DNA from: Acidicapsa acidisoli
Lineage (GTDB): Bacteria > Acidobacteriota > Terriglobia > Terriglobales > Acidobacteriaceae
NCBI RefSeq assembly: GCF_025685625.1
Contig: NZ_JAGSYI010000001.1
Span: forward strand, 806,001-870,000
Reading direction: 5' to 3'
Length of the DNA stretch: 64,000 nucleotides
The notes under the pieces are model-generated. The model had not been told where the DNA came from and searched no databases. It saw only the letters and a list, made by a program, of their open reading frames with translations. Both the position numbers and the translations under genes were made by a program. Positions 11,368-30,509 of this stretch are shown here, in pieces; positions within the stretch are counted from its first letter, which is position 1, and each line of letters begins with the position of its first letter.

Positions 11368-11392
11368 GGCACTCGCGTCTTCCGCGAGTGCC
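11368..11392. terminator. hairpin between siderophore receptor and piuC
   Basis: Perfect 10-bp inverted repeat (GGCACTCGCG / CGCGAGTGCC) with a TCTTC loop. On the minus strand it is followed by only a short T-rich run, so it may be a partial terminator or an mRNA-stabilising structure separating receptor and piuC expression. Confidence 0.55.
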
Positions 11393-11417
11393 GTCGTGGC
11401 TTGAGAAAAAGAGCGGC

Positions 11418-14048: not shown

Positions 14049-14825
14049 CCTCGGTTTCTCCTCCGGTTGGCAAAGGCCTTTTCAGTTGCAGCACAGCCCT
14101 TTGCGGTTCAGTTGTTTTGGGAGCGAGCGTGCAAACCTGGTCGCAGTGGGGCGCAGGCGTGACAGGGCACACCTTGACCGCTGAGTCCGGATCTGGCGCA
14201 ATCCCGCGCCTTTTCTGCCGATTTTTATGAACGGGGGTCCAGCCGAGGAGAGGCGAACATATAATGCAGTTAGCTCGCAGTCCAATCGGCTGTAGCTCCA
14301 GGGTCTTCGCGGTCTCCGCCAAGAGATTTTCCGCAGGGCCCTGGCCCATCAAGAATTGCCAGCCTGATGCCTTCCTTCAAAAATCACTCAAATTTGCTGC
14401 TGAATTGAATATACGACAAATTTGGTCCGATACCGAAGGAATCGAGGCAAAGCTCACAAAAATCCTGAAACATTTGTGCAAAATTCATTTGTACGTTGGC
14501 GTCTTCATCGCGTCGGCGCTGTGTTTTTCGCGTTTACAGGTGCGGTTCAAACGTTCAACCTGCATGAGACTACGCAGAGCAGCAGCTACGCTCCGCCCAA
14601 ATGGCTGACGATGCCCGGGTAGCTACACATCAAGTCGTCAAGCTGACCCTTGTAACGTTTGCTCACAACCTGAGCACGTATTTTCAGGAACCGAGCAGGG
14701 CATTGCGAAGAGCCGGCACTGCGGTTGTCAGGGCATCCTTTATTTCACGTTTCAGAGGTGCTGTGCGTGAATGTGATGCTGCCATCAGCTTCTTGTCGGT
14801 CGATATAACCAAATCGCCGGCTGTT
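14049..14825. other. intergenic region, no gene supported
   Basis: About 0.78 kb upstream of the siderophore receptor and downstream of permease 1. The part from 14370 to 14500 is AT-rich and has two nearby CAAATTT copies. Two plus-strand frames (14264-14608 and 14601-15011) have unnatural composition and no ribosome-binding site. I recognise no RNA gene or Fur box here. Confidence 0.5.
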
Positions 14826-16469
14826 TCAACGACTTCGAGATCCGTATGCGAAAAGCAACGCCGCGAAGCCGACGAGCGATACGAGAAGGATGCTGTGCTT
14901 CAAGGTAAACCGGAAAAGACGCGCCTGATCGGGCAGCGACATTCCGGTTGCCGCAGCTGCGACTGCGATTGTCTGGAGACTGATCATCTTGCCCATCACG
15001 CCGCCGACTGAGTTAGCTGCCGCCATGAGCACGCGGTCCAATCCAAGACGTCCGGCTGTGAGGACCTGGAGATTTCCGAAAAGTGCATTGGAAGCGGTAT
15101 CCGACCCGGTGAGAAACACTCCGAGCCAACCGAGGACGGCACTGAAGAAGGGAAATGCCGCGCCCGCCGCCGAGAAAGCCAACCCTAACGTTGCGGTAGC
15201 GCCACAATAGTTCATCAGGAAGGCCACGCCGAGCACGCTGGTGACGGTGATCGTGGGCAAAGCCAGTTGATGGACCACGGAAGCCAGCAGACGGAGAAAG
15301 CGGCCAGGGGTCATTCTCGCGCTGGCTGCGGTAAGCAAGGTGGCCGCGGCGCAGGCTGTGCCGGCGGCAGAGAGCCAATTCACGCGAAATATGGCAGGGT
15401 AAGGAGCGGGTGCGGCTGAGATAGGTGGCATGCGCCACACTACATCGTGCAGAAACGGCCAGGGAAAGGAGAAGCTCAACGCATCCAATCGGCGCTGAAC
15501 AGGCCCAAAGCCCCACAGCAGAACACACCCTACGAGAAAGATATAGGGCAGCCATGCGAACAGGATAGCGCCGACGGTATACGAGGACGCGGGATCACGC
15601 TCTGGAGACCGGATTACGACTACGTTTGGCGCAGACGCGGTTGCCTGGAAACCATTGGGATGCCAGAAGCGAAGCAGCGCGATCAGAGATGCCATCGTCA
15701 GCAGAGAGGCAAGGATATCCGTCAGTTGAGGCCCCATATAGCTGGAAACCAGCAACTGTGCAGCCGCAAATACAGTGCCCGTCAGCACCACCGGCAGCCA
15801 TATTCCGCGAAGGGCTCGAAATCCCCACGTGGCGGCGACCAGATACATCGGCATGATGAGGACGACCGGCGTACAGAGACGCCCTATGTCCGTGCTGAGT
15901 TGCCGCACGGGAAGGCCGGTCGTGCCAGCGAGAGTGATAACCGGAATTCCAATCGATCCGAACGCTACGGGAGCCGTATTCGCGACAAGACAGATGGCCG
16001 CAGCAGTAAACGCAGGGAATCCCAGCCCCGTCAACATGGTGGAAGCAATTGCGACCGGAGCGCCGAAGCCAGCCGCGCCTTCCAGAAATGCGCCAAAGGC
16101 GAACGCAATCAAGATGGCCTGAAGACGCGGATCGGGCGTCAGTCGTCCGATGGTGCTCTTGATGATTTCGAACTGACCTCCTTCCTGGGCCACTCGAAAG
16201 AGCAGAATGGCCCAGAAGATGATCCAGAAAATTGGGAAGAGGCCAAATGCGGCCCCGTTGCAAGCCGCGCTGAAGGCCGTAAGTGGCGGCATGTGGTAGC
16301 CGGCAATGGCAAGAAGGAAAGTAACTCCGAGGCCGACGAGTCCCGCGAGCCATGCCGGCTTTCGCATAACTCCGAGTAGAAACAGCAGCGTAAAGATCGG
16401 TGCCGCAGCGAGAGTTGCGGAAACGCCGAGTCCGCAACCGAATAAGAAATATGTCTGCGGCCAACTCAT
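14826..16469 (-). CDS. LctP-family hydroxyacid permease 1
   Basis: A 547-residue inner-membrane transporter of the L-lactate permease family (LctP/GlcA; lactate, glycolate and related 2-hydroxy acids with protons). About 13 hydrophobic segments cover nearly the whole chain. The family signature E-G-A-A-G-F-G-A-P-V-A-I-A near residue 110 and the repeat T-G-S-D-T-A-S-N-A-L-F-G-N-L-Q near residue 450 are both visible. It starts 25 bases after the stop of the glycerate kinase gene on the same strand, so the two form an operon driven from the promoter near 18145. The kinase neighbour suggests glycerate, glycolate or a similar acid as substrate, but the family alone cannot settle this. Confidence 0.88.
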   Translation of the reverse strand: MSWPQTYFLFGCGLGVSATLAAAPIFTLLFLLGVMRKPAWLAGLVGLGVTFLLAIAGYHMPPLTAFSAACNGAAFGLFPIFWIIFWAILLFRVAQEGGQFEIIKSTIGRLTPDPRLQAILIAFAFGAFLEGAAGFGAPVAIASTMLTGLGFPAFTAAAICLVANTAPVAFGSIGIPVITLAGTTGLPVRQLSTDIGRLCTPVVLIMPMYLVAATWGFRALRGIWLPVVLTGTVFAAAQLLVSSYMGPQLTDILASLLTMASLIALLRFWHPNGFQATASAPNVVVIRSPERDPASSYTVGAILFAWLPYIFLVGCVLLWGFGPVQRRLDALSFSFPWPFLHDVVWRMPPISAAPAPYPAIFRVNWLSAAGTACAAATLLTAASARMTPGRFLRLLASVVHQLALPTITVTSVLGVAFLMNYCGATATLGLAFSAAGAAFPFFSAVLGWLGVFLTGSDTASNALFGNLQVLTAGRLGLDRVLMAAANSVGGVMGKMISLQTIAVAAAATGMSLPDQARLFRFTLKHSILLVSLVGFAALLFAYGSRSR

Positions 16470-16494
16470 ACGTGTGTTGCTCTTTTGTGTGGAA

Positions 16495-17940
16495 TCAATG
16501 GGAGGCTGTTTCTCGGCTCATATGGCATGGCGATTCTGCCAGAAGAATCCGCAGGTCGCGAAGATTGTTCCCCGTGGGCCCTGTCATGATGGCCACTCCG
16601 GCGTCTTGAAAAAAAGAGTAAGAAGCGAAGTGCCGCAGCGCCACTTGTGCTTTCACATACAGAGATTCATCGGACGCCTCATCGGAGGATAGAACTCCCA
16701 CTCTAACTGCGCGAAGTGTCTGCCCGCTTACCACCGCGCCGGCCGCGACACTGTTTCCATCCACGCCGTCTGAGCCTACGGATAGCACTGCAATCGGCTC
16801 GTCGGAGGATTGAAGCAGAGTCGCCGTATACAGCGCGAGATGCTGGTTGCGGCCGCCCACCCTCGCATCCACAAGTTTGCTGCCGAGGCCGGAAACCGGA
16901 AGCGGCACTGCGACTTCTCCTACAGAGATCAGGCAGACACGCGCGTGCTCCCGCCTCAGATTGCGAATGCGGCCGAGCAGGTATTCCGATGCGGCGCGAT
17001 AATCCCAGTCGTCACAGGTATTGTCAATAACAGCATGAAAGCCGAGCTGCGTGGCATGCTGACGTGCCGCTTCCGCCAGATCGCTGGCATCGAGAAGTGT
17101 GACCGCGCGCGCGGTCAGGTCTTGCGGCTTCGGTGTCTCCGGGAGTTCAAGGGAGACAAAGAGCCGCCGGACGGAGTCAGGAAAGCGATCCAGAAGATTG
17201 TACTTACGAATGACTTCGCGGCATTCGTCGACCGTCGATGTGTCCGGAAGCGTGGGTCCGGACCCGATGGTGTCGAGGTGTCCTGACGGAACATCCGAAA
17301 TGAATATAGAGAGGCATTCGGCGCCTTTGGCAGCGATAGCTAGCCTTCCACCCTTGACTGCGGAAAAGTGCTTTCTAACGCAGTTGATCTCACGGATCGA
17401 CGCGCCGCTATACACAAGAGCGCTGTTGAAGAGAATCGTGTCCGCTAATGTGATCTCTTCATCCAGCGGCAGTTCCATCATTGCTGAAGCTCCACCACTC
17501 ACGAGGAACAAGCACAGCGTATCCTCACCGCGAGACGCCAGCTCAGATGCGGTCCGCAACATTCTGAGCACGGCGCGCGCGCCCGCGAATGACGCGTCGT
17601 TGGGCATGGGATGACCGCCGGCGAAGAACTCGAAATTTTCGCGCGGCAACTGTGGGGGCAACGTGGAGATAAGAACTCCCGCGAGATCACATGCCGGAAG
17701 CAAGGGCAGCCGTGACAAGAACGCTTCCAGCATTGCCGGTGCGGCCTTGCCGAGCGCAACAACGCGGACATGCCGGAACCGTGTCAGTTCCAACCTGCTT
17801 TTATCTTCGAAAAGCAGGCTCGAGCTGCCATCTTGTTCGATGACTCTGACCTTGAGCGCCACGGCTTGTTCGACGTTACAACTCGACAGCGCCCGTTCAA
17901 AGATAGTGCGCGCGAGATCGCTCAAGTCTACCCTCTCCAA
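16495..17940 (-). CDS. glycerate 2-kinase (DUF4147/MOFRL family)
   Basis: Cytoplasmic enzyme of 481 residues that phosphorylates D-glycerate to 2-phosphoglycerate, feeding lower glycolysis. The N-terminal DUF4147 domain shows G-K-A-A-P-A-M (about residue 63), S-G-G-A-S-A-M (about 149) and the S-D-V-P-S-G-H-L-D-T-I-G-S-G-P stretch (about 213-227). The C-terminal MOFRL domain shows G-L-G-S-K near 354, the region's G-G-R-N-Q-H, and S-V-G-S-D-G-V-D-G. Family genes often sit with hydroxypyruvate, tartronate-semialdehyde or sugar-acid catabolism. Here the gene precedes permease 1, with a leader of about 180 nt from an operator-bearing promoter. Confidence 0.92.
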   Translation of the reverse strand: MERVDLSDLARTIFERALSSCNVEQAVALKVRVIEQDGSSSLLFEDKSRLELTRFRHVRVVALGKAAPAMLEAFLSRLPLLPACDLAGVLISTLPPQLPRENFEFFAGGHPMPNDASFAGARAVLRMLRTASELASRGEDTLCLFLVSGGASAMMELPLDEEITLADTILFNSALVYSGASIREINCVRKHFSAVKGGRLAIAAKGAECLSIFISDVPSGHLDTIGSGPTLPDTSTVDECREVIRKYNLLDRFPDSVRRLFVSLELPETPKPQDLTARAVTLLDASDLAEAARQHATQLGFHAVIDNTCDDWDYRAASEYLLGRIRNLRREHARVCLISVGEVAVPLPVSGLGSKLVDARVGGRNQHLALYTATLLQSSDEPIAVLSVGSDGVDGNSVAAGAVVSGQTLRAVRVGVLSSDEASDESLYVKAQVALRHFASYSFFQDAGVAIMTGPTGNNLRDLRILLAESPCHMSRETASH

Positions 17941-18129
17941 ACTGTTTTCCTCCGGGCGCTTGGCCGGTAAGTTGTCGAGCCTGCGGAGAGACTACACTAC
18001 GCTCAGCTACTAAGTGCGAATCCTGCGATACATTGCCGCCGATTCATCGACACGATAACGTCATGCGCTGGCATCGACTGAACACGCCCTTAGAGTATGC
18101 GAGGCGATCATGAATCATGCTCGGGCCAA

Positions 18130-18159
18130 ATGCTAATCGTATGGTATGACCATTGTCAA
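18130..18159 (-). promoter_or_regulatory. promoter with FadR-type operator, kinase-permease operon
   Basis: Read on the minus strand: TTGACA (18159-18154), directly followed by the palindrome ATGGTCATACCAT (18153-18141), then TAGCAT (18135-18130) as -10, spacer 18. The TGGT-N3-ACCA core is the operator form of FadR/PdhR-type GntR regulators. Binding inside the spacer would repress transcription. Near-identical copies lie at 23136-23165 and 29577-29605. Confidence 0.7.
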
Positions 18160-18286
18160 CCAACGTATTCCAGGCCCGCAAATATCCGCTTTGTCCCGGC
18201 TCCGCCTGCATGAATCGCGAATTGTGCGGGCGAAGCAGTTCTCTGGGCGAGCCTGGAGAAGCGCGATGAAGTGCTCTTTCCTGTTC

Positions 18287-18315
18287 TTGCACCTTCCGTA
18301 CGTTGGTCGTATAGT
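18287..18315 (+). promoter_or_regulatory. sigma-70-like promoter of the GntR regulator
   Basis: TTGCAC (18287-18292), 17-base spacer, TATAGT (18310-18315), giving a predicted start near 18322 and a leader of about 100-150 nt. The spacer end contains TTGGTCGTA, which resembles one half of the operator found at the three target promoters, so autoregulation is conceivable. Confidence 0.5.
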
Positions 18316-18421
18316 CGTAAGATCATCCGGCAGTTGTTTCAGGACTGACGTTAGACAAGCGCATGGAACGAAGCGGTGAACTGGGATTTCGGGTCTGGAG
18401 CATCCTCCAAAAATAAGGCTG

Positions 18422-19282
18422 GTGGATAGGTCCTTCGCAACGCTCGACCATGGAAAGGGATTACAGGTACGAATGGGAGAACTCCATCAATCTCTCTCCA
18501 GGTCCGTCGAATCCAAGATTCGGAGAGTTACGAAAATCTCGATCAGTGAAGAGATCGCCAAGCAGATTATGGATCTGATTTCGAATGGCGATCTCACACC
18601 AGGACAGCGTCTGCCTTCCGAACGGGACCTGTGTGAAAACTTTGGAGCCAGCCGTTCCTCGCTGAGGGAGGCTCTGCGCTGTTTGTCCATCGTCGGTGTG
18701 TTGAATGCTCGCGTTGGAGAGGGCACTTCCGTTGCGCCCGACGGTGGAAAGTTCCTGCGCAAGATCCTCGAATGGAGAATGATTACCGAGAAGCACGATA
18801 TTGAGAACCTGCTGGAAATTCGCATCGCATTGGAAGGAGTGTCTGCGGCAAATTCCGCTCTCTACGCGTCTCCAGAAGATATCGAGAATGCGCGAACACT
18901 CCTGGCAAAGATGAAAGCAGCTGTGAAGGACGAAACACAGTTTGCGATTCTGGATCTCGACTTTCATCTCACCCTTGCCAATGCCTCCCGGAACACACTG
19001 CTTCTCGATCTGATCTCCGTAATTCGAAGTCAGTTGGCCAGAGCCTTGTCGACGGTTCTCCAGCTTCCCAACGCCAGACCGCTCTCGTTGAAGGAACATA
19101 TCGCCATCTTTGAAGCGATTGAGCGGCATGATGCCGAGGCTGCGCGCAAAGCCATGCACGACCATCTGGAAGCCGCACTCAAGCGGTACGCCGAGGCCAC
19201 CGCCGCGGGAAACGGTTCGCGCACGAAGACGACCGCGCCTGCCAATGCCAAGCGGACGCGGGCTCGCTCGGCGAAGAAATAA
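18422..19282 (+). CDS. GntR-family regulator, FadR subfamily with FCD domain
   Basis: A DNA-binding repressor/activator of 286 residues. A winged helix-turn-helix spans about 41-107 (L-P-S-E-R-D-L followed by S-R-S-S-L-R-E-A-L-R, the GntR recognition region). An all-helical FCD ligand-binding domain spans about 125-262, with the metal-binding pattern D-L-D-F-H and later histidines in the E-H-I-A-I-F and M-H-D-H-L helices. The C-terminus is basic and low in complexity. The start may be GTG 18422 or ATG 18473; ribosome-binding sites are weak for both. FCD regulators commonly sense carboxylates such as lactate, pyruvate, glycolate or sugar acids. Its position between genes sharing a FadR-form operator makes it the likely controller of this island. 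Confidence 0.9.
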   Translation: MDRSFATLDHGKGLQVRMGELHQSLSRSVESKIRRVTKISISEEIAKQIMDLISNGDLTPGQRLPSERDLCENFGASRSSLREALRCLSIVGVLNARVGEGTSVAPDGGKFLRKILEWRMITEKHDIENLLEIRIALEGVSAANSALYASPEDIENARTLLAKMKAAVKDETQFAILDLDFHLTLANASRNTLLLDLISVIRSQLARALSTVLQLPNARPLSLKEHIAIFEAIERHDAEAARKAMHDHLEAALKRYAEATAAGNGSRTKTTAPANAKRTRARSAKK

Positions 19283-19292
19283 AGCAACAATA

Positions 19293-19329
19293 CTACCTGG
19301 CACTCGTGAAGGCTCCGAGTGCCAGGTAG
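19293..19329. terminator. bidirectional intrinsic terminator
   Basis: Perfect 14-bp inverted repeat (CTACCTGGCACTCG / CGAGTGCCAGGTAG) around a 9-base loop, between the convergent regulator and receptor genes. On the minus strand it is followed by a T-rich stretch. Confidence 0.8.
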
Positions 19330-19351
19330 CCTTATCTGGTCCGAGCCGCCG

Positions 19352-22300
19352 TTAGAAGACGAATCGAATGGCAGGTTGAATCGTCCGCGGCACGTTGGTC
19401 TGCCCGTTGGCGCGAATGAGTTGCCCGAACTGAGGCGATGTGTAATTGATGTTAGGATCGCCGCCGAAAATCGGGTGATTGAATGCGTTCAGAAATTCGA
19501 CGCGAAGCTGCAGATTCATTGTCTCGTGAATGTAGTTGTTCTTAGAGAGGGTGAGATTTGTTTCAGTTCCCCAGCGATCTCGTATGTTTCCCATCTGCAG
19601 CGGGACGGTTCTCAGAGCGAACGCTGGGAGCACACGCCAGGCTGGCGCCAGTCCGGCCACCTGATTGGTCACGGTGCCGTTTAGCTGGGTCGTGCCGCTG
19701 TTGAACATCTGCAGCCATGATTTATTGGGAACGCCGGGGTTGCCGACCAGAGCGACTCCGGCTGGACCGGTCATGGGCGCGCCGGTCTGGAAGAGGATAT
19801 GTCCCGAGCCTTGCCAACCGCTGATGAAGACGTTGACGACCTTATTAGCTCCGCTAAACAACTCCCTCCCCTTACCGAAAGGCAGCTCGTACACCGGCGT
19901 GAAATCGATGCGGTGCTTGCGGTCATAGGGCGCATAGCTATGCGTGGGCGAGGTCAGAGAGTCATCCGTAAATGTGCTGGCATCGGGCGAGCCTGGCTGC
20001 AATGCCGGTGCGTGGACGAACGCATCCTGAGGGTTCAGGTAGGTAATCGCCTCAAGACTCTTGGAGAACGTGTACGACACCATCGTATCGAAGTGATGCC
20101 ATGAATGCTGTTGCATATTCAGTTGAAACGCGTTGTACCAGTAATGGCCGAGGGGAACGTCGTTCTCGGTAACGGAAGTGAACTCCGGGAACGGAAGCAG
20201 GGACTGCTGCCGGCTGATGGTTGGCCCATTGAGCGACGTGGTTGGCAGCAACCCCTGAAATGGATTTGGCACCTGTTTAGTGAGATAGCTGGAGGATCCC
20301 CCAAGATCGCTGTTACCCAAAGCAAGATTCGCCGCAGTCAGCGCATCGATATTCAGACCTTGAACAGGAATCTGGTTGGCCCTGGAGCCTGCGTACGCCA
20401 GGTCCAAAGTGATGCGCGCTGGAAATTCCTTCTGGAGTCCGAACGAGAAAACCTGCACGTGGCCGATCCTGCCGCTGGGGTCGGAGAAAGAGGGATTCTT
20501 GCCATTCAACGTGGCAAGACCGGCGGAGGATCCGGTAGGTGCGAGGATGCCTGAGGGGAAGGGATTAGATAGCGGATTCGCGATGGTCTCGCCATTGTTG
20601 AGCGTACCCACATACGGTGTGGTTTGACTGAAGCCGCTGCTGCTCGCCTGAGAATACTGCGGAACATAGAAGATGCCCCAACCGCCTCGGAGAGCGATAT
20701 CAGTGCGCAAGCGGTAAGCCGCGCCAAAGCGGGGCTGGAAGCTGGTCAAATCGACATTAAACGGCGAACGCGAGTTGCCGCCGACACCCACAAAGCCGAG
20801 ACCGCCGTAGACGTTTTGGCCAATTGCTGCACTGATCGGGTTCACTCCCGCGAAATCGAATCCGTGTGTGAGCTGGTTGTGCCTGTCTGTGATCGGCGTC
20901 TGGATGTCATAGCGGAGGCCTGCGTTGACAGTCAGCCTGGGAGTCAGCTTGATATCGTCCTGCACCCAGAGGCCGTAGTACACAAGGCTGTAATAGGGCT
21001 TGGGAAGAACATCCGCTTCCCCTGTCGCAGCTCCGCCGACGAGCATGGAAGCAATACTATTGCCGCTCAGTGGATCAGAGACAAGATAGTTCTGCTGCGT
21101 AAAGCCCGGCGTGATGCCGAACGTTCCGCCGCCATAGGCTCCAGTGAAATCGTCGAAGCGCGTCCATCGCCAATCAAGCCCGAACTTGATGGATTCGCGT
21201 CCCTTCGTCAGGATCAGAGTAGGTTCAGCGGTAAGAGCTGTCGTAGGTTCAAACACGATGTTGCCGGACGAAGAGCCAAGGTATTGATAATTCGTCACGG
21301 TGGTATACGGGAACCAATGCGGCGATTGGAACTGAGCGACCGTAGCGGCCGGCAACCCGATATCTGTACCGTTGAAGGAGGTCCAATTGTTGGGAAGGAA
21401 GTTCTGCGTCCAGCGGGTGAGCGACGCGCGCAGATCGAGAACGACGTTTGGCGTAAGCACTGACACGGAGTCCGCAACCACGTCGTTATTTACTTTTGTT
21501 CCATCGCGCAGGTCGGCTCCGATACCGGGAAGATTGTTCGAATTACCGGTGATATATGCCTTGTTCCACGCGTAACGAACATACATCTTTTCGCGATCCG
21601 AGAAGGTGTGGTCGATGCGTGCAAGCACGTTGTGGAAAGGTCCGTCGTCGGTGACATTGTTGCCTAGGTAATTGTTCTGCCAATTCACTGTCGCGTTCTG
21701 GTTTGTATTGGGCAAAGGATAGGCATTCGCCAGCGCCTGGCCTACAGGATCGATTTCGTTCGCAGGGATCTTGTTGCCCGGAAACGGGTCGCGCGTCCAG
21801 ACGCCATTGACGAGATGACCTGAATTCGGGTCGTAGATGGTGATGAGTTGACCGCTGCTGTTGAAGGTCTGCGAGAAGTCGCCCTGGCGCTGCAAAGCCG
21901 TTGGAACCGACGTGCCTGTTACGAGATTGATTAGTTCGTTGTAGCCTTCCCAGCTGTTGAAGAAGAAGGTCTTGTCTGTGCCGTTGTAGATGTGCGGAAT
22001 CCGCACAGGGCCGCCCAGGGTATAGCCGTATTCGTTGAGAGACTGATTGCTCTTCTTTACATGGGCAGCGTCGTTGGCATAGGTATTGGCGAACAGCCAG
22101 GGGCGATTGATGAAATCGTATGCTGTTCCGTGAAACGCGTTGGTGCCGCTCTTCGTGGCAACGGAGATGACGCCGCCGCCATTGCGGCCATACTGCGCGT
22201 CGAAGGGCGCAGTGATCGCCTTGAACTCGGCCACGGCGTCGACAGCCGGGATGTAGGCGAGTGCGTTCGTCGTGTACAGCATGTCGTTTGGCGCGCCGTC

Positions 22301-22984
22301 CAGAAGATTCTCAGTTGCGTCGCCGTTCATGCCGTTGAACGAGTAGGCGGAGTTACCGCTGTTGGTAAACGGAAGCAGGTCATATCGTTGCGTGACCTGA
22401 GTTACACCGGGAACAGCTTCCACCAGTTCGATCGGGTTGCGCACCGCGAGTGGGACTTCTTCCACCTGACTGGTGGAGAGAACGACACCCCGGTCGGACT
22501 TCTCGGTTTCAAGCAGGGGCTGATCGCTGGTCACGGTCACGGTGGACGACTGTGATCCAAGCGCCATGCGAACATCGATCGTGGATGCCTGACTGACGTT
22601 GAGAACGATTCCATTCTCTACAAAGGTTTGAAAGCCTTGCGCCTCGGTCGAGAGTGTGTAGGTTCCCGGATCGACAAAGAGAAACCGATATTGGCCGTCC
22701 GTGTTCGACGTTGCGGTAGCGCTTACGCCCGTGGCTATATTGGTCAGCTTGAGCGTTGCGCCTACGATCGTCGCAGAGCTGGGGTCGAACACGGTGCCGC
22801 TCAGCGTGGCGCGCGTCTCCTGCGCACTCATCGTACTGGCAGCCAAGGACGCCAGAACCAAGAGAACGATTGTGTGAGCAAAGATCATTGCGCGTCCGGA
22901 GTGCACCTTTGGCTGCACCCCCGTTCTCGCTTTTTGGCCTGCCTCATTTTTTACGACACATAGCTTCGTTTCTGCTTGAAGCAT
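19352..22984 (-). CDS. Oar-type TonB-dependent receptor in the FadR-operator regulon (1210 aa)
   Basis: Outer-membrane receptor with an unusually long n-region before its hydrophobic signal core (H-T-I-V-L-L-V-L-A-S-L-A-A, residues 37-49), a carboxypeptidase-regulatory-like domain (about 58-145; S-G-T-V-F-D-P-S-S-A-T-I-V-G-A), a plug (about 150-280; L-L-D-G-A-P-N-D) and a barrel ending in I-R-F-V-F. The start is fixed by AAGGAGG nine bases before ATG 22984. It is transcribed alone from the operator-bearing promoter at 23136-23165, the same type that drives the kinase-permease and glycosidase units, so it probably imports the compound these genes process. It is only a distant relative of the receptor at 6.6 kb. 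Confidence 0.9.
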   Translation of the reverse strand: MLQAETKLCVVKNEAGQKARTGVQPKVHSGRAMIFAHTIVLLVLASLAASTMSAQETRATLSGTVFDPSSATIVGATLKLTNIATGVSATATSNTDGQYRFLFVDPGTYTLSTEAQGFQTFVENGIVLNVSQASTIDVRMALGSQSSTVTVTSDQPLLETEKSDRGVVLSTSQVEEVPLAVRNPIELVEAVPGVTQVTQRYDLLPFTNSGNSAYSFNGMNGDATENLLDGAPNDMLYTTNALAYIPAVDAVAEFKAITAPFDAQYGRNGGGVISVATKSGTNAFHGTAYDFINRPWLFANTYANDAAHVKKSNQSLNEYGYTLGGPVRIPHIYNGTDKTFFFNSWEGYNELINLVTGTSVPTALQRQGDFSQTFNSSGQLITIYDPNSGHLVNGVWTRDPFPGNKIPANEIDPVGQALANAYPLPNTNQNATVNWQNNYLGNNVTDDGPFHNVLARIDHTFSDREKMYVRYAWNKAYITGNSNNLPGIGADLRDGTKVNNDVVADSVSVLTPNVVLDLRASLTRWTQNFLPNNWTSFNGTDIGLPAATVAQFQSPHWFPYTTVTNYQYLGSSSGNIVFEPTTALTAEPTLILTKGRESIKFGLDWRWTRFDDFTGAYGGGTFGITPGFTQQNYLVSDPLSGNSIASMLVGGAATGEADVLPKPYYSLVYYGLWVQDDIKLTPRLTVNAGLRYDIQTPITDRHNQLTHGFDFAGVNPISAAIGQNVYGGLGFVGVGGNSRSPFNVDLTSFQPRFGAAYRLRTDIALRGGWGIFYVPQYSQASSSGFSQTTPYVGTLNNGETIANPLSNPFPSGILAPTGSSAGLATLNGKNPSFSDPSGRIGHVQVFSFGLQKEFPARITLDLAYAGSRANQIPVQGLNIDALTAANLALGNSDLGGSSSYLTKQVPNPFQGLLPTTSLNGPTISRQQSLLPFPEFTSVTENDVPLGHYWYNAFQLNMQQHSWHHFDTMVSYTFSKSLEAITYLNPQDAFVHAPALQPGSPDASTFTDDSLTSPTHSYAPYDRKHRIDFTPVYELPFGKGRELFSGANKVVNVFISGWQGSGHILFQTGAPMTGPAGVALVGNPGVPNKSWLQMFNSGTTQLNGTVTNQVAGLAPAWRVLPAFALRTVPLQMGNIRDRWGTETNLTLSKNNYIHETMNLQLRVEFLNAFNHPIFGGDPNINYTSPQFGQLIRANGQTNVPRTIQPAIRFVF

Positions 22985-23471
22985 TCTCTTTGACCTCCTT
23001 CAGGATTCACTATTCCGGGATGGAAGTACTCGCGCCCTGCTCGTCCTGCGCCGCGAACATTCGCCAGATCCTGACATGTGCGGGAACAAAATTTCCGTTC
23101 GTGCGCCTGTCTGTCCATCAGTATTTAGCAACGGGATGTTAAGCATATGGTCATACCATTGTCAACTCCGAATTCCTAAAAAGAAGGGAGGACTCGCAAA
23201 CGCCTCAGAGAATGGGCCTTTGCGGCGGAGGGTATGCGCCGATGACACGTGGATTCGGTTTAGTTTAGTGCGGTCCATAAAGAAATCACGCGAGCGGAGT
23301 GTTCATCGCGGTCCGTCCGCCCCGTCCCGCGCGTGTCGCGCACAGCCTCACACGACCGCGCTACGGCGGATTGCGTGCACGAAGCAAGACCGCACTCCGG
23401 CTGCATTCTCTTCGGATTCGCAGTATTACTTAGGCGCCTGTGTACCTAGCCAAAACCTATCTGAAGAAGCA
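22985..23471. other. intergenic region upstream of receptor
   Basis: It holds the receptor promoter/operator at 23136-23165 and the trailing region of malate synthase. A distant 8-base inverted pair (GTGCGGTC near 23268, GACCGCAC near 23389) is present. Plus-strand frames across it run against malate synthase and look spurious. Confidence 0.45.
23136..23165 (-). promoter_or_regulatory. promoter with FadR-type operator, receptor gene
   Basis: Read on the minus strand: TTGACA (23165-23160), palindrome ATGGTATGACCAT (23159-23147) immediately after it, then TAACAT (23141-23136) as -10, spacer 18. Identical in design to the kinase-operon promoter. The predicted start is about 145 nt before the receptor ATG. 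Confidence 0.7.
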
Positions 23472-25082
23472 TCACTCCACATCGCTGTTCTCCGCAGCGA
23501 TGACCCGGGCATAAGCTGGAACTGTCAGGAACTCTGTAAACCGCTGCGAATGAATCAATTCGCGCATGAGCTCAGCCGCCTGAAGATAGGACTGATGGCG
23601 AGATCGATCACAAGCCTTCTCGACCCGCGTGAGTTCCGCGACGATGAAACTCTCGCAAAGCTCTTCAGTTACCTTTCGGCCATCTTCCATGACCGCTCCA
23701 TGATGGACCCACTGCCATAGCTGCGCTCTGCTGATCTCTGCCGTTGCCGCATCCTCCATCAAGTGGAACAATGGGACACAACCGATACCGCGAAGCCACG
23801 ACTCGACATAGCCAAGCCCGACCGCGATATTCCGCTCCAGGCCTGCCTCGGTGATTGCTCCTTCCGGCGCCCGCAGCAGGTCTTCGCTGGTGACTTGAAA
23901 ATCGGGAAGCTGCTTGTCGATCTGATTGGGCTGCGGCATCACCCGATCAAAAACATCCATGGCGATGGGAACAAGTCCAGGATGAGCGACCCACGTGCCA
24001 TCATGGCCGTCGGTTGCTTCGCGCTCCTTGTCCGCGCGGACACCTGCCAGCGCGTGCTCGTTGGCTTCCGGATCGTTCTTGATTGGGATCAGCGCGCTCA
24101 TGCCTCCCATCGCGCTCACGCGCCTGTGGTGACACGTCTTGATGGCGAGTTTGGAATAGCAGCGCATGAAATGCGTCGTCATTGTGATCTGCGCTCGGTC
24201 GGGAAGGATGAGCGACTCGTCGCCGGAAAATTTCTTGATATAGGAGAAGATGTAGTCCCAACGGCCGCAGTTCAAGCCTGCCGAGTGATCCTTCAGCTCC
24301 CAGAGAATCTCGTCCATCTCAAAGGTCGCCAGGATCGTCTCGATCAGCACTGTGGCCTTGATCGACCCGTTGGGGATACCCAGCTCGCGCTCTGCCACGA
24401 CAAAGATGTCATTCCAAAGCCGCGCCTCAAGATGGCTTTCTATCTTCGGCAAATAAAAGTATGGACCCGAGCCGCGCGCCAGCAATTCCTTCGCATTGTG
24501 AAACGCGTACAAAGCAAAGTCGAAGATGGAGCCGCTCATCGGCTCTGCATCCACCAAGACGTGCTGTTCTTCCAGATGCCAGCCGCGCGCGCGGACAAAC
24601 AACACCGCCGGGTTGCTGCCAAGCTGATAATGCTTGCCCGTAGCGGGATCATCGAAGGTTATGGCCCGGCGCACGGCATCTCTCAGGTTGATCTGCCCCT
24701 CAATCACATTGCTCCAGGTCGGAGTGGTCGAGTCCTCAAAGTCGGCCATGAATACTTTAGCGCCGGAGTTCAGCGCATTGATCACCATCTTGCGATCCAC
24801 CGGACCGGTGATCTCGACGCGACGATTCAACAGATCTGCCGGCAGAGGAGCAACTATCCACTCGCTGTCGCGGATATACTTTGTTTCTGCCAGGAAATCA
24901 GGACGCTCGCCGGCATCGAGGCTCCGCTGGCGCGCAACCCGTGCGTTCAACAAGGCTTTCCGCCGCTCGTTGAAGGTACGCTGGAGTGCCGTCGTGAAAG
25001 CAAGCGCATCTGGCGTGAGGATTTGCCTGTACGAATCGGGAACGGAAGCACTAATTTCAATATCAGCACCAAAATTACTCAT
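23472..25082 (-). CDS. aceB: malate synthase A
   Basis: Condenses glyoxylate with acetyl-CoA to malate and CoA, in the cytoplasm. Its 536 residues are typical of the AceB (isoform A) class. Visible active-site elements: R166 in V-R-A-R-G-W, E248 in L-I-E-T-I and D276 in G-R-W-D-Y as magnesium/glyoxylate contacts, and the catalytic base D444 in [17 protein letters not shown] lies five bases before ATG 25082. No isocitrate lyase is nearby; instead the gene follows an LctP-type permease by 90 bases. That arrangement suggests glyoxylate arising from glycolate or another C2 source, rather than the acetate-driven glyoxylate shunt. It is the last gene of the unit beginning at about 29570. Confidence 0.95.
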
Positions 25083-25172
25083 CGCATCTCCTTGTAACTA
25101 CCGTCGGGTCCTCTCGGTACACGCAGCTTATTTTCGCGCAGCCGGAATCTTTGCATTCGTTTCTGTGATAGA

Positions 25173-26858
25173 TCAGCCGGTTCCGGCTGCAACTGGCGCC
25201 AGAACATCGCGGGGCACAATGCCAGGAAGAATATAGGCCTCTACAACGACCAGTGCGATGATGATTCCGAGAAGTATCAGGGAATATCTCCAGGTCTTCC
25301 GAAATATATCCGTTTCCCTGCCGGCCATCCCTGTGGCCGCACAGGAAATAGCCAGGGATTGGGGAGAAATCAGCTTACCCGTAACACCTCCAGCCAGGTT
25401 CGCCGACGTTGTCAGAACCGGATTGATGCCGATCTGCAACGCCGTTACCTGCTGTAGCTTGCCAAACAGAACAGCTGAGGAAGTTACGGAACCAGTAAGA
25501 AATACCCCCATCCACCCGATGACCGGCGATACCACCGGGAACAGTTTGCCGGTATAAAACGCGAGAGCCAGAGCAAGCGTGTAGGACATGCCTGAGTAGT
25601 TCGCGACATAGGCGATACCCACGACGGAAGCTAATGTTATAAGAGCGATTTTCATCTGATTGAGCGACTTTACGAAGACCCGGACGGCTCTTGCAGGGCT
25701 GACTCTCAGCAACACGATCGAGATCAGTGATGCAAAAAATATGGCCGTGCCCGGAGCCGTGCTGACCTCCCACCGGTAGCTTGCCGCGTACAGGGTCGGT
25801 TTGGCAACAATCGGGACGTTCCTGTATACGATGCCATCCAGGAAGGGCCATGCAGGTATGTTGACTACCAGGTGGCTGGCATTGAGCATCCAAAGCTTGA
25901 ACTCCGGCACGCTCCAGATGCACATGACGATCATAAGAACAAGAAATGGGGTCCACGCGTAGATGACTTGCCAAACGCTGTGCTTCTTCGAGGCTTCGCC
26001 CGCCGCATCCGGATCATTCGGAAATCGCCAGATTTGCCTGGGCTTCCAGAGCTTCAGAAATACAACAAGAGATACGATGGAGACAACCGAAGATAGTAGC
26101 GCAGGTAGCTCAGGCCCTAGATAGCGAGTTACAAGGAGGCAGGTGATGGCGTAGCTTCCACCGGCCACAAGCGCCGCCGGAAGTACGTCAATGGCACTCT
26201 TCCACCCTGCCATGACCACCAGCATGAAAATGGGGATGATCAGGGCAAGTACGACCATGTCCATTCCTACAGCTCTAGCCAGAACATGATCGTCGATCCT
26301 GGTTACGCTGGCCATCATGATGGTCGGAACTCCGAGGGGACCAAATGGAACCGGCTGCGTATTGCCGACGAGACAGACTAGGGCCGCCTGCAGCGGTGCA
26401 AACCCAATACCGATCAGCATCGCCGCACACACTGCAACCGGCGCGCCCATGCCCGCTGTGCCTTCCATGAATGCGGAAAAACAAAACGCAATCAACAAAG
26501 CCTGCAATCTACGATCGGTGGAAAGCGATGCTATCGAACTCTTGATGATCTCCAGCTGTCCCGATTCCACAGTGAGATTGTAGAGGTAGACTGCGGCCAG
26601 AATGATCCATCCAATCTGGAAGAGCCCGTTGACCATCCCCAGCACTGCGGCCGAAAGCGCGACTGGCACTGGCATTCCGTATCCCAGCGTGGTGATGATA
26701 GTAATAAGCAACAACGTAAGCAGCCCTGCGACATGGCCCTTCATTCTCTTTACGGAGAGCGCCCAAAAGAGAAAGACGACAGGAATGCACATGACCAGCG
26801 CAGTCAGTCCGAGGCTGTTGCCGACCGCGGAGTAGTTATGGAACCATCGCAAAGGCAC
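25173..26858 (-). CDS. LctP-family hydroxyacid permease 2
   Basis: A 561-residue proton-coupled inner-membrane permease of the lactate/glycolate family. Hydrophobic segments cover the chain. The signature E-G-T-A-G-M-G-A-P-V-A-V-C is near residue 130, and the second-half repeat T-G-S-V-T-S-S-A-V-L-F-G-K-L-Q is near 453. It shares the family fold with permease 1 at 14.8 kb but is clearly divergent, so this is not a recent duplication. The start is GTG 26858 with a GGGGG run about ten bases upstream. It lies between the glycosidase-like gene and malate synthase on the same strand. The malate synthase neighbour points to glycolate or glyoxylate-yielding acids as substrate. Confidence 0.88.
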   Translation of the reverse strand: MPLRWFHNYSAVGNSLGLTALVMCIPVVFLFWALSVKRMKGHVAGLLTLLLITIITTLGYGMPVPVALSAAVLGMVNGLFQIGWIILAAVYLYNLTVESGQLEIIKSSIASLSTDRRLQALLIAFCFSAFMEGTAGMGAPVAVCAAMLIGIGFAPLQAALVCLVGNTQPVPFGPLGVPTIMMASVTRIDDHVLARAVGMDMVVLALIIPIFMLVVMAGWKSAIDVLPAALVAGGSYAITCLLVTRYLGPELPALLSSVVSIVSLVVFLKLWKPRQIWRFPNDPDAAGEASKKHSVWQVIYAWTPFLVLMIVMCIWSVPEFKLWMLNASHLVVNIPAWPFLDGIVYRNVPIVAKPTLYAASYRWEVSTAPGTAIFFASLISIVLLRVSPARAVRVFVKSLNQMKIALITLASVVGIAYVANYSGMSYTLALALAFYTGKLFPVVSPVIGWMGVFLTGSVTSSAVLFGKLQQVTALQIGINPVLTTSANLAGGVTGKLISPQSLAISCAATGMAGRETDIFRKTWRYSLILLGIIIALVVVEAYILPGIVPRDVLAPVAAGTG

Positions 26859-26961
26859 TCAAGAATCCCCCATATCGCCGGTGCTCAACTCACTCGTCGC
26901 AGGAACCTGCTCCATATGTAGTTGCGTTGCCCGAGACCTTCTGCGAACGCTGGAGATCCTT

Positions 26962-26991
26962 GCGCCGCTACCTATCGAGCGATAGCGGCGC
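26962..26991. terminator. hairpin between glycosidase-like gene and permease 2
   Basis: Perfect 9-bp inverted repeat (GCGCCGCTA / TAGCGGCGC) with a 12-base loop and an alternative inner stem CTATCG/CGATAG. No T-run follows on the minus strand, so it is more likely an mRNA-processing or stability element than a full stop. Confidence 0.45.
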
Positions 26992-27046
26992 TTAGCGTCC
27001 ATCCCGGTCGATTGGAATCACAACTGAGACCGTGCGCTCAGGCGAA

Positions 27047-29407
27047 CTATTCGAGTACCGCGACCTCGTGGTCGAGAATGGATCTGACTTCGAATTGTGC
27101 CCATCCACCCTCACGTCGTACATGCGTGGCGTTTTCTTTCGAGGCTGTCAGAGTTAGCTTGTTTCCGGCCACGCCTTCCGGCAATTTCAGCCGCACGGTC
27201 AATGGGCCAACCGGAATGAGTTCATCTACCGGTGCCCGCCATGTGCCAGCACTGGTTAAGTTCACTAGGTGAAGAATGAGACGATTCTGCTGGCGATAGA
27301 GATGGCAGTCGATCAAGCCCGGTCCTTTGACTTCAAGGGAGACATCGTCTTTCGCTGCCCAGCGGACAAGGTTTGCCAATAGATCACCGTGGTCAGGGAT
27401 GTTGCCTTGTTCATATCGCCGGTCGATGTCGGCCGGCAGGAACGCAATGCGGGCCCCGTTCTGTTCGCGAACCAGAAGCCCCGGTATCCCCGAACGCGGA
27501 TGCCGCAACCACGAGTTCTCCGGAGGCATAATGGGGAACTCCGGAACCAATGTCAGGAGCACGGTTGTTCCAGGCGCAGGCTTTACCTCTGGGAGCACGC
27601 CGCCAAAAGTCAGGATGTTGGTTTCTTCGAAGCCTCGCAGCGCCGGATGACGGACTGCTGACTTAGCCGGCTCGTCGCCGTGGCGCGGCCCATCGACATC
27701 CTGCCCTACATCTGGGGTGAGCCGAAGATACGTATGCTGAAGAGTCGCGGGGTTATGCGGACCATAGCGCTTGCCCGTGTAGTTCGCGCCAAAGACATCG
27801 GCCAGGGCAAAGTCTTGTTTCGCATCGCCGTACTCGTCATAGAGGCTGGTTTCATCAGTCGCGATCAGCGAACCACCCTTGCTGACGAAACGCCGCACGG
27901 CTTCGACCTGAGAGTTGGTCATCGCCGCCAGATTGGGCAGCACCAGCACGGAAAATTTGGCTGCGTCGCGATCGATGTGATCGGCGTGGACGGGAAGATA
28001 CGGTATGCGGGCCCGAAGGAGCGCCTCGGTTACGCCGTTATACGGAGCCAACGCCAGCAGGTTGCCGTCGTCCCGGCCATACCACTCAAAGTTGCGCTGA
28101 GAATAAACCACACCGACGGTAGCGACCGGCTCACGGTGAATCATGTACTGCTGATTCGCAGCATACCAGCGGAAGAAGGGCTCGACGACGTGGAATTGAC
28201 GCCGGTCCTCCTGGTAGGCTCCCACGTGATGCCACCACGGTTGAATAGTCCCCGCAGCGGCTTCAACCATCCACATCTGCACTTCCGCAGCCGGGCGTGC
28301 AGCCTTGCGCGGCCCGTAGGTTGCCATGCTCTCGGGCGCGAGCTTATCCCAGCCGCCAAGCCCATGAACGCGCTTGCCCGTGTCGCCGTTCTCCTGAAAG
28401 CCTCCGTTGGCGGCTCTTGCCTGATGGTCCAGCATGATGATGTCGGCGCGCTCGCAGAGTTCTTTCATGTCCCGGAAAGTTGCCGCGTCCTGCACGAAAT
28501 TTCCGCTGAGCATGCCGCTCCAGATGCACTCCGGGCCGCCCGCTTCCCGGGTCGTGCGATTAAAGAGATCCCATATCTCCAGTCGCCGCTTATGACTCCA
28601 TTCAATCCACTGCCGGTAGGTCGGATCGTCCCAGTCTTTCTTGGTGGGCAGATCCTTTCCACCGGATTGCTTGAACTTTTTCTTGCAGTTCACGCAGTAG
28701 CACATGCTGTCGCGGCCCTGGCCGGCCCAGTGGTTATCGGTGAATCCCTCGGGCCTCTCATGGGCGGCTATTTCGCGTAAAATCCTGGGAATATATTCTT
28801 CGTAATACGGGCCGTTGATGCACGTGGTGTAGAGGACGATATCATCGCGCTCCGGCCCGGGTGCATCGCCTCCACCACGCCTGACGCGGCCGTCGGCTTC
28901 TGCAACACCGGTTCGATAAGGTTCGCCGTCGGCATTCACGGCGAACCAATCCGGATGCGCCTTATAGAACGGCTCGAAGGCGCTGCCGCAATCCATGCGT
29001 GCGAAGACTTTGAGCCCGTCCGCATGAGCTGCGCGGGTGAGGTCGCCGTAGAGATCCTGACCGTTCAGGAACTGAGCCTGATGGTGAAGCGGTTCTTTCG
29101 TCGGATAAAAGGCGATAATGCCACCGGCATTGATGACCAATCCCTGCGTCTGCGCGCGCCTCCAATAACTGCGCCACCAATCCATATCGAAATGCTGCGG
29201 ATCCAGTTCGTTCAGGTTGATCTGTCCCCATCGGCAAGTTGTGCGATACCAGGGAGCCGCACTCTTTTCTGCGCCGACCGGAGCGGCTTGCGCGCTCGCT
29301 TCGCTACGGGTAAAACCGCCGAGACTCATCGCCACGGGAAGCACTGCCGCCGCCTTCAGAAAGTCGCGGCGGGACTCTATCTCGCCATTCTTCTGCATCG
29401 GTTCCAA
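27047..29407 (-). CDS. Tat-exported glycoside-hydrolase-like protein (GHL6 / beta-galactosidase trimerisation type)
   Basis: A 786-residue protein with a twin-arginine signal (S-R-R-D-F-L-K-A-A-A, residues 12-21). An (alpha/beta)8-barrel-like domain follows, resembling the hypothetical glycosyl hydrolase 6 group, with T-D-N-H-W-A-G-Q-G and an unusual C-Y-C-V-N-C cluster (three cysteines) near residue 240. A central flavodoxin-like domain resembles the beta-galactosidase trimerisation fold (V-L-V-L-P-N-L-A-A-M, G-G-S-L-I-A-T-D-E-T), then a C-terminal beta domain. Catalytic residues cannot be assigned with confidence. The TTG start at 29407 is preferred, because AAGGAG lies seven bases before it and 16 before the next ATG. 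It heads the unit with permease 2 and malate synthase, under a FadR-form operator. Confidence 0.78.
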   Translation of the reverse strand: MEPMQKNGEIESRRDFLKAAAVLPVAMSLGGFTRSEASAQAAPVGAEKSAAPWYRTTCRWGQINLNELDPQHFDMDWWRSYWRRAQTQGLVINAGGIIAFYPTKEPLHHQAQFLNGQDLYGDLTRAAHADGLKVFARMDCGSAFEPFYKAHPDWFAVNADGEPYRTGVAEADGRVRRGGGDAPGPERDDIVLYTTCINGPYYEEYIPRILREIAAHERPEGFTDNHWAGQGRDSMCYCVNCKKKFKQSGGKDLPTKKDWDDPTYRQWIEWSHKRRLEIWDLFNRTTREAGGPECIWSGMLSGNFVQDAATFRDMKELCERADIIMLDHQARAANGGFQENGDTGKRVHGLGGWDKLAPESMATYGPRKAARPAAEVQMWMVEAAAGTIQPWWHHVGAYQEDRRQFHVVEPFFRWYAANQQYMIHREPVATVGVVYSQRNFEWYGRDDGNLLALAPYNGVTEALLRARIPYLPVHADHIDRDAAKFSVLVLPNLAAMTNSQVEAVRRFVSKGGSLIATDETSLYDEYGDAKQDFALADVFGANYTGKRYGPHNPATLQHTYLRLTPDVGQDVDGPRHGDEPAKSAVRHPALRGFEETNILTFGGVLPEVKPAPGTTVLLTLVPEFPIMPPENSWLRHPRSGIPGLLVREQNGARIAFLPADIDRRYEQGNIPDHGDLLANLVRWAAKDDVSLEVKGPGLIDCHLYRQQNRLILHLVNLTSAGTWRAPVDELIPVGPLTVRLKLPEGVAGNKLTLTASKENATHVRREGGWAQFEVRSILDHEVAVLE

Positions 29408-30107
29408 GATTCACTCCTTTGTTCTCGCTGATTGATCTCTTCAGAAATGGGAATGCGCGTGAATCAGAACCGATGGTGCCCTCATGACGTCTCCGCATAG
29501 CTGCAGCCACAGGGCTGGAACGGATGCAGAGGTCATTTTTCAGGTGGTTCGATACCCGGTCCGAATCTTCGTGCAAATGGTAGATTGGTCATACCATCCT
29601 GTCAAGTCAGGCTTTGAAATAAAGTTGGGCGCGGCTGACATTCCTGCCATTTTTCGTTCCCGCTGAGGCGCGGTAAATCCGGATGGATGCACTTGATCTA
29701 GCAATCTGGCGGTTTGCACTTAGCCCATGTTGATCGAACCGAGAGCATGAATCCGCGTTATGCAAGGCACATATTGCATCGACCGATGTAATGAGCTGAA
29801 GAACGCGGGTAGGTTTCTTTGCCACGCCTGGGATCGACCTGATTGAGGTAAGGCTACGCCCGCTGGCTTGGCCCGAGACGAAGGAGATAGTGCATAGCGG
29901 CTTAGTGTAAGGCGCAACGACAGGATCGGCTTTACTTGTAACGCAAAGCTGCTGTGTGGTTAAAGCGGCTTCTCAGTCACTGACGACAACGATAGCGTTA
30001 TGAGTAGGAGATGACGGCCTGACATTGCCATCCAGCTTCCCCTGCCTGCACCAAACTCTTCGTTCCTCGATGCACACGAAGAGAACTCAATAATAGGAGG
30101 TTCAACT
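29408..30107. other. intergenic region with operator-bearing promoter
   Basis: A 700-base gap between the minus-strand glycosidase unit and the plus-strand DoxX gene. The left third holds the promoter/operator at 29577-29605 and its leader. The right part (about 29630-30090) shows no convincing gene or RNA, and frames in it have atypical composition. Confidence 0.5.
29577..29605 (-). promoter_or_regulatory. promoter with FadR-type operator, glycosidase-permease-aceB unit
   Basis: Read on the minus strand: TTGACA (29605-29600), two extra bases GG, ATGGTATGACCA (29597-29586), then TACCAT (29582-29577) as -10, spacer 17. The palindrome is TGGT-ATG-ACCA as at the other two sites, shifted by 2 bp from the -35. 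The leader to the TTG start is about 160 nt. Confidence 0.7.
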
Positions 30108-30509
30108 ATGGAACGATATGCCCTTATCGCAGCTCGCGTGCTCATGTCGATCATTTTTCTTTTGAATGGACTGAACGTCGTCAGCCAGAGCCTTGCCGCA
30201 CACGAAATGGCCGCTCACGGCGTTCCCGTCAGCCTTGTGCCCATGATGCTTCTGGGCGCGCAAGCTTTGCAACTCGTCGCAAGTATTGGCTTGATATTCG
30301 GACTTTATCCCCGTCTCTCTGCGTTAGCCCTGCTTTTATTTCTGATCCCAGCTACCCTCATGGCCCATGCCTTCTGGCAGGCGGTGGGCACACCGCTGTA
30401 CACGATTCAGCTCATCAACTTTCTCAAGAATGTGTGTATGGCTGGCGGCCTCATTTTCGTCGCGGCTACAAACATTCAGCCCATTCGGTTTCCACATCCA
30501 ACGCGCTAA
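30108..30509 (+). CDS. DoxX-family membrane protein
   Basis: A 133-residue integral membrane protein with four predicted helices (about 5-22, 43-63, 68-90 and 100-120). The DoxX pattern is an N-terminal R-V-L-M-S-I-I-F-L-L-N-G-L helix followed by G-x-x-P-R-L-S-A-L-A-L-L. AGGAGG seven bases before ATG 30108 gives a firm start. Family members are linked to redox or thiol stress in some bacteria, but no activity can be deduced here. It is followed on the same strand by a quinone-oxidoreductase-like gene 98 bases on, which fits a redox theme. Confidence 0.88.
   Translation: MERYALIAARVLMSIIFLLNGLNVVSQSLAAHEMAAHGVPVSLVPMMLLGAQALQLVASIGLIFGLYPRLSALALLLFLIPATLMAHAFWQAVGTPLYTIQLINFLKNVCMAGGLIFVAATNIQPIRFPHPTR

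Follow-up and report, generated by a model that had tools for sequence, protein, structure and literature searches.

A conserved operator within three promoter spacers points to a local FadR-type regulon in the acidobacterium Acidicapsa acidisoli

A stretch of 64,000 nucleotides from the genome of Acidicapsa acidisoli (contig NZ_JAGSYI010000001.1, positions 806,001 to 870,000 of the forward strand; hereafter the window, numbered from its first letter) raises the question of whether three minus-strand promoters are governed by one and the same transcriptional regulator, encoded among them. It was proposed in an original prediction that each of these promoters embeds a palindromic operator of the FadR type, from which a GntR-type protein with an FCD domain would repress genes for a glycerate kinase, two permeases, an Oar-type receptor, a glycosidase and a malate synthase. 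To our knowledge, the control of gene expression in Acidobacteriota is poorly understood, and a literature search found neither a description of this regulon nor a regulon study of this kind for the phylum. Its members are described as abundant soil bacteria (PMC5900883). The kind of control system is already known, and the three-promoter regulon is a new example of it in acidobacteria. At the level of sequence, the sites, their promoter layout, their uniqueness in the genome, their co-occurrence with the regulator and the families of the target genes were established, and a local regulon of a FadR-subfamily regulator at three promoters is well supported as real, conserved and locally confined. 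The sites and the regulator gene are the following:

18130 to 18159, minus strand: site 1, with TTGACA, operator ATGGTCATACCAT (core 18142-18152) and -10 box TAGCAT, 18-bp spacer; predicted driver of the glycerate kinase and permease 1 genes.
23136 to 23165, minus strand: site 2, with TTGACA, operator ATGGTATGACCAT (core 23148-23158) and -10 box TAACAT, 18-bp spacer; predicted driver of the Oar-type receptor gene.
29577 to 29605, minus strand: site 3, with TTGACA, GG, operator ATGGTATGACCA (core 29586-29596) and -10 box TACCAT, 17-bp spacer; predicted driver of the GHL6 gene.
18473 to 19282, plus strand: GntR/FCD regulator (FadR subfamily), assigned from PF00392 and PF07729 over cut-off, alignments of orthologs and alignment to 2di3.

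A direct sequence check placed all three promoters where they had been predicted, each with TTGACA, a palindrome within the spacer and a TAnCAT -10 box, and the core TGGTATGACCA was common to the three sites, in one orientation or the other. As far as the site sequence goes, the operator form equals the consensus TKGT-N3-ACMA published for the FadR subfamily (PMC4494728), in agreement with the earlier reading of TGGT-N3-ACCA as an operator of that type. The layout was the same in sites 1 and 2 and different in site 3, in which the operator follows TTGACA after 3 bp instead of 1 bp and the -10 box stands at 17 instead of 18 bp. A sigma-70 consensus scan of positions 14500-30200 returned the three sites among its four 10-of-12 matches, the promoter-like matches totalling 8 and being not above shuffled sequences (7.4). 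The palindrome TGGTNNNACCA occurred three times in the window, compared with a mean of 0.48 in dinucleotide shuffles, none of 100 shuffles reaching three. In the 7.11-Mb genome, the specific core TGGTATGACCA was found in three copies, and the promoter-linked form TTGACA-N0-4-TGGTNNNACMA in exactly three, all of them in the window (control patterns, 0 in both cases), and the three TTGACA-linked operators fall within 11.5 kb around the regulator gene. Since the exact matches to this promoter-linked form numbered three, all in the window, the absence of a fourth site noted for the window was found to extend to the whole genome. A chance palindrome was rejected on these shuffles and on the confinement of the specific core and the TTGACA-linked form to the locus.

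The regulator gene is located on the plus strand between site 1 and the receptor gene. Its product combines an N-terminal GntR winged helix-turn-helix (PF00392, 64.8 bits, cut-off 27) with a C-terminal all-helical FCD domain (PF07729, 92.7 bits, cut-off 24.3), by which the predicted FCD type was confirmed; the predicted limits, 18422-19282, are those of the longest open reading frame (ORF), opened by GTG 18422, and ATG 18473 is the more likely start, as judged by eye from an alignment of 16 orthologs. The protein remained below every NCBIfam cut-off among the best 25 of its 26 matches (NanR, 140.2 of 260 bits; LldR, 126.6 of 311; PdhR, 105.8 of 330; GlcC, 89 of 301; FadR, 55.1 of 189). The nearest solved structure by sequence was 2di3 (E 3.6e-20), and residues D161, H165, H209 and H231, invariant in 12 aligned orthologs, align with the D/H/H/H of 2di3, which we take to be the metal site of many FCD proteins. 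The structure 2di3 is that of C. glutamicum LldR (PMC4494728). According to the same source, Arg and Ser at certain helix positions are linked to G/C in the FadR-subfamily box, and proteins of this subfamily bind small ligands such as carboxylic acids; the regulator carries SERD and SRSSLRE, with Arg and Ser of that kind, the helix positions having been mapped by eye.

The assignment of the operator to this regulator is supported by the co-occurrence of motif and ortholog across genomes. In the window's own genus, no full-length regulator match above 34% identity was found in 14 other genomes. Another genus of the same family (g40) held 15 orthologs, 52-67% identical, in 14 of 62 genomes, and the neighbourhoods of all 15 were taken, some of them ending early at contig ends. 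The pattern TTGACAWTGGTNNNACMA was present in 10 of these 14 genomes, compared with one of the 48 genomes without an ortholog (G468; Fisher p ~1e-7), and a match lay beside the regulator in eight of the 10 positive genomes. It was also observed that TTGACAATGGTATGACCATAT, as at site 2, recurs unchanged next to the regulator cluster in both G304 and G474, that TTGACAWTGGTMTGACAATATGACA stands directly upstream of the regulator in G094, G119, G352 and G453, and that equivalents of site 1 are conserved beside orthologous regulators in other genomes. Among 61 relatives, the pattern occurred only in the window's own genome, and the best regulator match in the other 60 was 40% identical (G057). In a sample of 396 genomes of the phylum, in which at most six candidates were scored per genome and an ortholog could in principle be missed, TTGACRWTGGTNNGACMA was found in six of six genomes with an ortholog (E below 1e-70) and in one of 390 without, the latter divided into 0 of 17 with weaker matches (E 1e-30 to 1e-36, 32-37% identity) and one of the remaining 373 (G189); the reversed control had one match in the 396 genomes. 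The six of six arose partly by construction, because the sites of those six genomes helped to define the pattern, whose near-absence elsewhere is not affected. In both G468 (L098) and G189 (L147), the promoter-operator motif is present although no regulator ortholog was detected; in L098 it lies upstream of an Oar-type gene. The regulator may have been lost in these genomes, or a paralog may use the same site.

A matrix of 25 positions, built from 23 hand-picked sites with the window motif as first seed, and with the weaker second sites and site 3 of the window left out, gave a similar picture. TGGT was present in all 23 sites and AC in 19 of 23, TGGT being mostly followed by TGAC, with TTGAC and ATGAC on the flanks. 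A leave-one-genome-out scan of the neighbourhoods (10-64 kb), which removes the same genome only, so that relatives as close as G094 and G352 contribute to each other's scores, gave a best score of at least 18 in 14 of 16; the 16 best matches comprised 13 intergenic ones and three within the regulator's longest ORF, at its over-long 5′ end. In the controls, the best score was 17.4 for 45 loci of other GntR-type proteins (156 kb) and 16.1 for 10 shuffled windows. Further ortholog loci (48-73% identity), found by an alignment-based scan of genome contigs and not included in the matrix, were held out, and eight of 14 had a site of at least 18 (L118, L119, L120, L122 with two sites, L133, L134, L137 and L140), compared with 0 of 50 other GntR-type loci (Fisher p ~7e-7, the control loci being shorter). 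In two cases a pair of held-out loci shares a single genome (L118/L120 and L125/L134), and the count leaves out L127, whose genes are 100% identical to those of G474, as well as L123, L124, L126, L128-L132 and L135, on contigs already used. None of five distant loci (30-39% identity) scored above 15.2. Locus L140 comes from a Vicinamibacteraceae bin, and the regulator-operator pairing may therefore reach beyond the family. Altogether, relatives retain the footprint, and its occurrence follows that of the regulator gene in the g40 genus, in the phylum sample and in the held-out loci; the original prediction thus passed its own test of conservation in relatives.

The promoter layout was conserved as well. 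Among 20 TTGAC-type sites (window and 15 neighbourhoods), 14 had a -10 box of at least 4/6 at 16-18 bp, and 11 of these had TAnnAT at exactly 18 bp. Because only 70 of 888 TTGAC words in the same DNA, the sites included, had a -10 box of 4/6 (binomial p ~9e-12), TTGACA is very probably the true -35 box of these promoters; five of nine strong held-out sites also had such a -10 box. Six sites of the other genus had no -10 box of 4/6 at 16-18 bp, and in these TTGACA and a third box, TATGAC, both some 8-12 bp away from the centre, are similar to the additional half-sites that GntR proteins are reported to have at 7-12 nt (PMC4494728). The two readings of TTGACA, as -35 box and as extra half-site, may both hold.

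We consider it highly probable that these elements form a local repression system of the FCD/GntR type, with a spacer operator, release by a 2-hydroxy-carboxylate and an induced module of uptake and catabolism. A dimer of the regulator would bind the near-palindrome WTGGT-NNN-ACMAW inside the spacer between the -35 (TTGACA) and -10 (TAnCAT) boxes of the three promoters, excluding RNA polymerase. Direct binding, repression instead of activation, the inducer and the substrate are what we infer here. An operator between the -35 and -10 boxes normally means steric repression, and exclusion of RNA polymerase is suggested because the operator sits inside this spacer. The release signal would be a small 2-hydroxy-carboxylate bound through the FCD metal site, with acids of the glycerate/glycolate/lactate type as the most likely candidates, and release would lead to induction of the outer-membrane receptor, the exported GHL6 enzyme, two LctP hydroxy-acid permeases, glycerate 2-kinase and malate synthase, a module that would serve the uptake and catabolism of a substrate yielding C2/C3 hydroxy acids. 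Such acids are suggested as the theme by the two LctP permeases, the glycerate 2-kinase and the malate synthase. The predicted target genes are the following:

16495 to 17940, minus strand: DUF4147/MOFRL glycerate 2-kinase-type enzyme; Pfam over cut-off, NCBIfam glycerate 2-kinase models matched below cut-off.
14826 to 16469, minus strand: LctP-family permease 1, 25 bp after the kinase gene; PF02652, and TIGR00795 over cut-off.
19352 to 22984, minus strand: Oar-type outer-membrane receptor; carboxypeptidase-regulatory domain, plug and OMP_b-brl_4 in Pfam.
27047 to 29407, minus strand: GHL6 protein with a twin-arginine translocation (TAT) signal, putative periplasmic glycosidase; partial GHL6 match, GH42M match below cut-off.
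25173 to 26858, minus strand: LctP-family permease 2; Pfam, and TIGR00795 over cut-off.
23472 to 25082, minus strand: malate synthase A; TIGR01344, 798.6 bits, cut-off 594.5.

The gene names given originally hold by Pfam and NCBIfam, with two reservations: 'glycosidase' rests on the partial GHL6 match and is a family guess, and the glycerate kinase falls under the NCBIfam equivalog cut-offs. The AlphaFold2 model of the GHL6 protein had a mean predicted local distance difference test score (pLDDT) of 45.2. Both LctP permeases exceeded the TIGR00795 cut-off of 341.15 bits (456.9 and 525.7) and stayed below the cut-offs of the L-lactate permease and glycolate permease (GlcA) equivalog models. After site 3, the GHL6 gene is followed by permease 2 and then by malate synthase A. 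The only isocitrate-lyase-family match in the genome was partial (53.6 bits, Pfam cut-off 26; positions 151-265 of the 526 in the model, within a frame of 314 aa), and because of this glyoxylate from other sources is tentatively favoured over the glyoxylate shunt as the context of malate synthase. This partial match lies at G000:C2:1638789-1639124 (L111; G000 is the window's genome), though malate synthase A is present. Elsewhere in the window, at 10624-14048, a TonB-dependent receptor whose best model is the catecholate siderophore receptor Fiu (below cut-off) adjoins a PKHD-type 2OG-Fe(II) hydroxylase, likely as a separate iron-uptake unit beside the regulon.

In other genomes, the neighbours of the regulator include LarA, an enzyme of the 3-hydroxyisobutyrate-dehydrogenase family, an SSF carrier, an arabinofuranosidase, GHL6 proteins and Oar receptors. 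G473 encodes a 76%-identical malate synthase, transcribed away from the regulator ortholog, and the site that separates the two genes is weaker (18.4, no perfect TTGACA). GHL6 genes were among the most persistent neighbours, being present in eight of 16 neighbourhoods (window included) and also in L118, L122, L133 and L134; in L118 and L122 the GHL6 gene lies directly upstream of the regulator, with the operator at the GHL6 promoter. A family of about 905 aa also recurs near the regulator and Oar receptors (L065:8319-11066, L118:10721-13486 and L122:8842-10533); two tested members had no Pfam match over cut-off, and it is a possible new enzyme family of the same regulon.

Several observations weigh against a regulon of this composition and reach. 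The bare palindrome TGGTNNNACCA is not enriched genome-wide, with 62 copies compared with 76 of a reversed control pattern, and the genome-wide scan suggested originally thus favours only the promoter-linked form with TTGACA, which is confined to the locus. The operator of site 3 is shifted by 2 bp, and this site was not among the matrix matches. No site of at least 18 was found in two of the 16 ortholog neighbourhoods, G458 (14.6) and G467 (15.8), or in six of the 14 held-out loci (L121, L125 with 14.4, L136, L138, L139 and L141). Two of the 10 positive g40 genomes, G458 and G476, carry the exact pattern at a distance from the regulator, one of the two G476 matches being inside an ORF; in G458 it stands upstream of a dehydrogenase and receptor pair 70-82% identical to pairs found beside the regulator in other genomes, and its distance from the regulator therefore fits what trans-regulation predicts. 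The neighbour genes vary between genomes, and the shared ones are distant (GHL6, 31-34%; Oar, about 24-31%; LctP, 36-42%; kinase, 39-52%). Loci of other GntR/FCD proteins (L022, L024, L028 and L050) contain TGGTCTGACCA or TGGTATGACCA cores. TGGTMTGACCA cores can thus also stand close to other FCD proteins of the phylum, and the core by itself does not single out the present regulator; this suggests a core shared by several FCD groups of the phylum, with different flanks. With regard to the targets, a 188-bp gap between the GHL6 gene and permease 2 holds a weak terminator-like hairpin, which makes it uncertain whether permease 2 and malate synthase are transcribed together with the GHL6 gene. 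Finally, the GlcD-like loci L112, L113, L114 and L117 showed no operator in the roughly 1.5 kb covered to either side, and on this range glycolate oxidase was rejected as a regulon member; the best GlcD-like gene lies elsewhere in the genome, at 314.5 of 567.9 bits (below cut-off), without an operator in the part of its locus that was covered.

These observations bear on three other explanations, the strongest of which keeps the regulator at the sites and changes its action. A role as activator or dual regulator, instead of simple repressor, is unlikely, though it deserves some weight, since TTGACA and, in the other genus, the TATGAC box flank the core in the manner of the extra GntR half-sites (PMC4494728), TTGACA could belong to a larger protein-binding array, besides or instead of being the -35 box, and six of the 20 TTGAC-type sites are devoid of a suitable -10 box. 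However, the operator lies between consensus -35 and -10 boxes in all three promoters of the window and in 14 of the 20 sites overall, an arrangement in line with repression. It is very improbable that another GntR/FCD protein encoded elsewhere in the genome is the real regulator of one or more sites. Six further weak GntR matches exist in this genome, the TGGTMTGACCA core may be shared by related FCD proteins, and two genomes carry the motif without the ortholog; nevertheless, the TTGACA-linked sites occur only around the regulator at 18473-19282, and the distribution of the motif over genomes follows this ortholog group and not FCD proteins in general.

It is scarcely credible that the three motifs have no regulatory meaning, having clustered by chance or survived from a single duplicated promoter. 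The background frequency of the bare palindrome would agree with it, but the shuffles did not reach three copies and the TTGACA-linked form is confined to the locus. As to duplication, local alignment of the upstream regions extended over about 43 columns on and around the core in the case of sites 1 and 2, was limited to the core for sites 2 and 3, and was best outside the core for sites 1 and 3; because these alignments are short, with at most about 43 columns, the three regions are not copies of one duplicated segment, and this origin was rejected. The conservation of the footprint in other genera already refutes both versions. Local repression by the FCD/GntR protein from the spacer operators is thus the preferred model.

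Among the known systems, the FadR subfamily with its GlcC, LldR, PdhR and FadR groups (PMC4494728) resembles the present locus in the GntR winged helix joined to an FCD domain, in the TKGT-N3-ACMA operator with a 3-nt centre and in the association with carboxylic-acid pathways; here, site 1 lies between the divergent regulator and a target operon. The present regulator differs in remaining below the cut-offs of the NCBIfam models matched (best 25 of 26), in belonging to Acidobacteriota, a name absent from the main text of PMC4494728, and in the promoter-embedded motif TTGACAWTGGTMTGACMATATGAC, which is particular to this regulator group. NanR, the highest-scoring NCBIfam model (below cut-off), binds direct repeats of TGGTATAW (PMC4494728), whereas the core here is a palindrome, flanked in the other genus by TGAC-type repeats, and no sialic-acid genes were found among the 30 window ORFs scanned with Pfam and NCBIfam. 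The lactate system LldR/lldPRD, represented by C. glutamicum LldR (2di3), shares the LctP permease family and the aligned D/H/H/H residues; the regulator did not reach the LldR equivalog model, and no lactate dehydrogenase gene was found among the scanned ORFs. The E. coli glc system comprises GlcC, the glycolate permease GlcA and the malate synthase GlcB, and in the glycolate operon one regulator controls the glycolate oxidase genes glcDEF as well as the genes for the permease and malate synthase. It is similar to the present locus in having an FCD regulator beside LctP/GlcA-family permeases and malate synthase. However, the malate synthase is here of the A type, not G, a glycerate kinase, an Oar receptor and a GHL6 enzyme are also involved, three separate promoters take the place of one operon, and no glcDEF genes were found among the scanned ORFs.

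The analysis thus ties together, from sequence alone, a regulator, its operator, the promoter boxes and the likely targets, in a phylum with little regulatory knowledge, and the promoter layout gives a usable picture of the -35 and -10 boxes in this group. The predicted regulon also links the GHL6 family and the family of about 905 aa to hydroxy-acid metabolism, which makes the substrates of these enzymes testable. More tentatively, and with considerable doubt, a fixed cassette of one FadR-type family (TTGACA, the operator one base on and TAnnAT at 18 bp) may have been re-used in Acidobacteriota before changing gene sets, which include Oar-type receptors, exported GHL6 and arabinofuranosidase enzymes, LctP and SSF carriers, glycerate kinase, LarA and malate synthase. 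If this were true, the cassette would be an organic-acid-sensing switch for polysaccharide-utilisation-like loci, in which the signal would be a released hydroxy acid and not a sugar.

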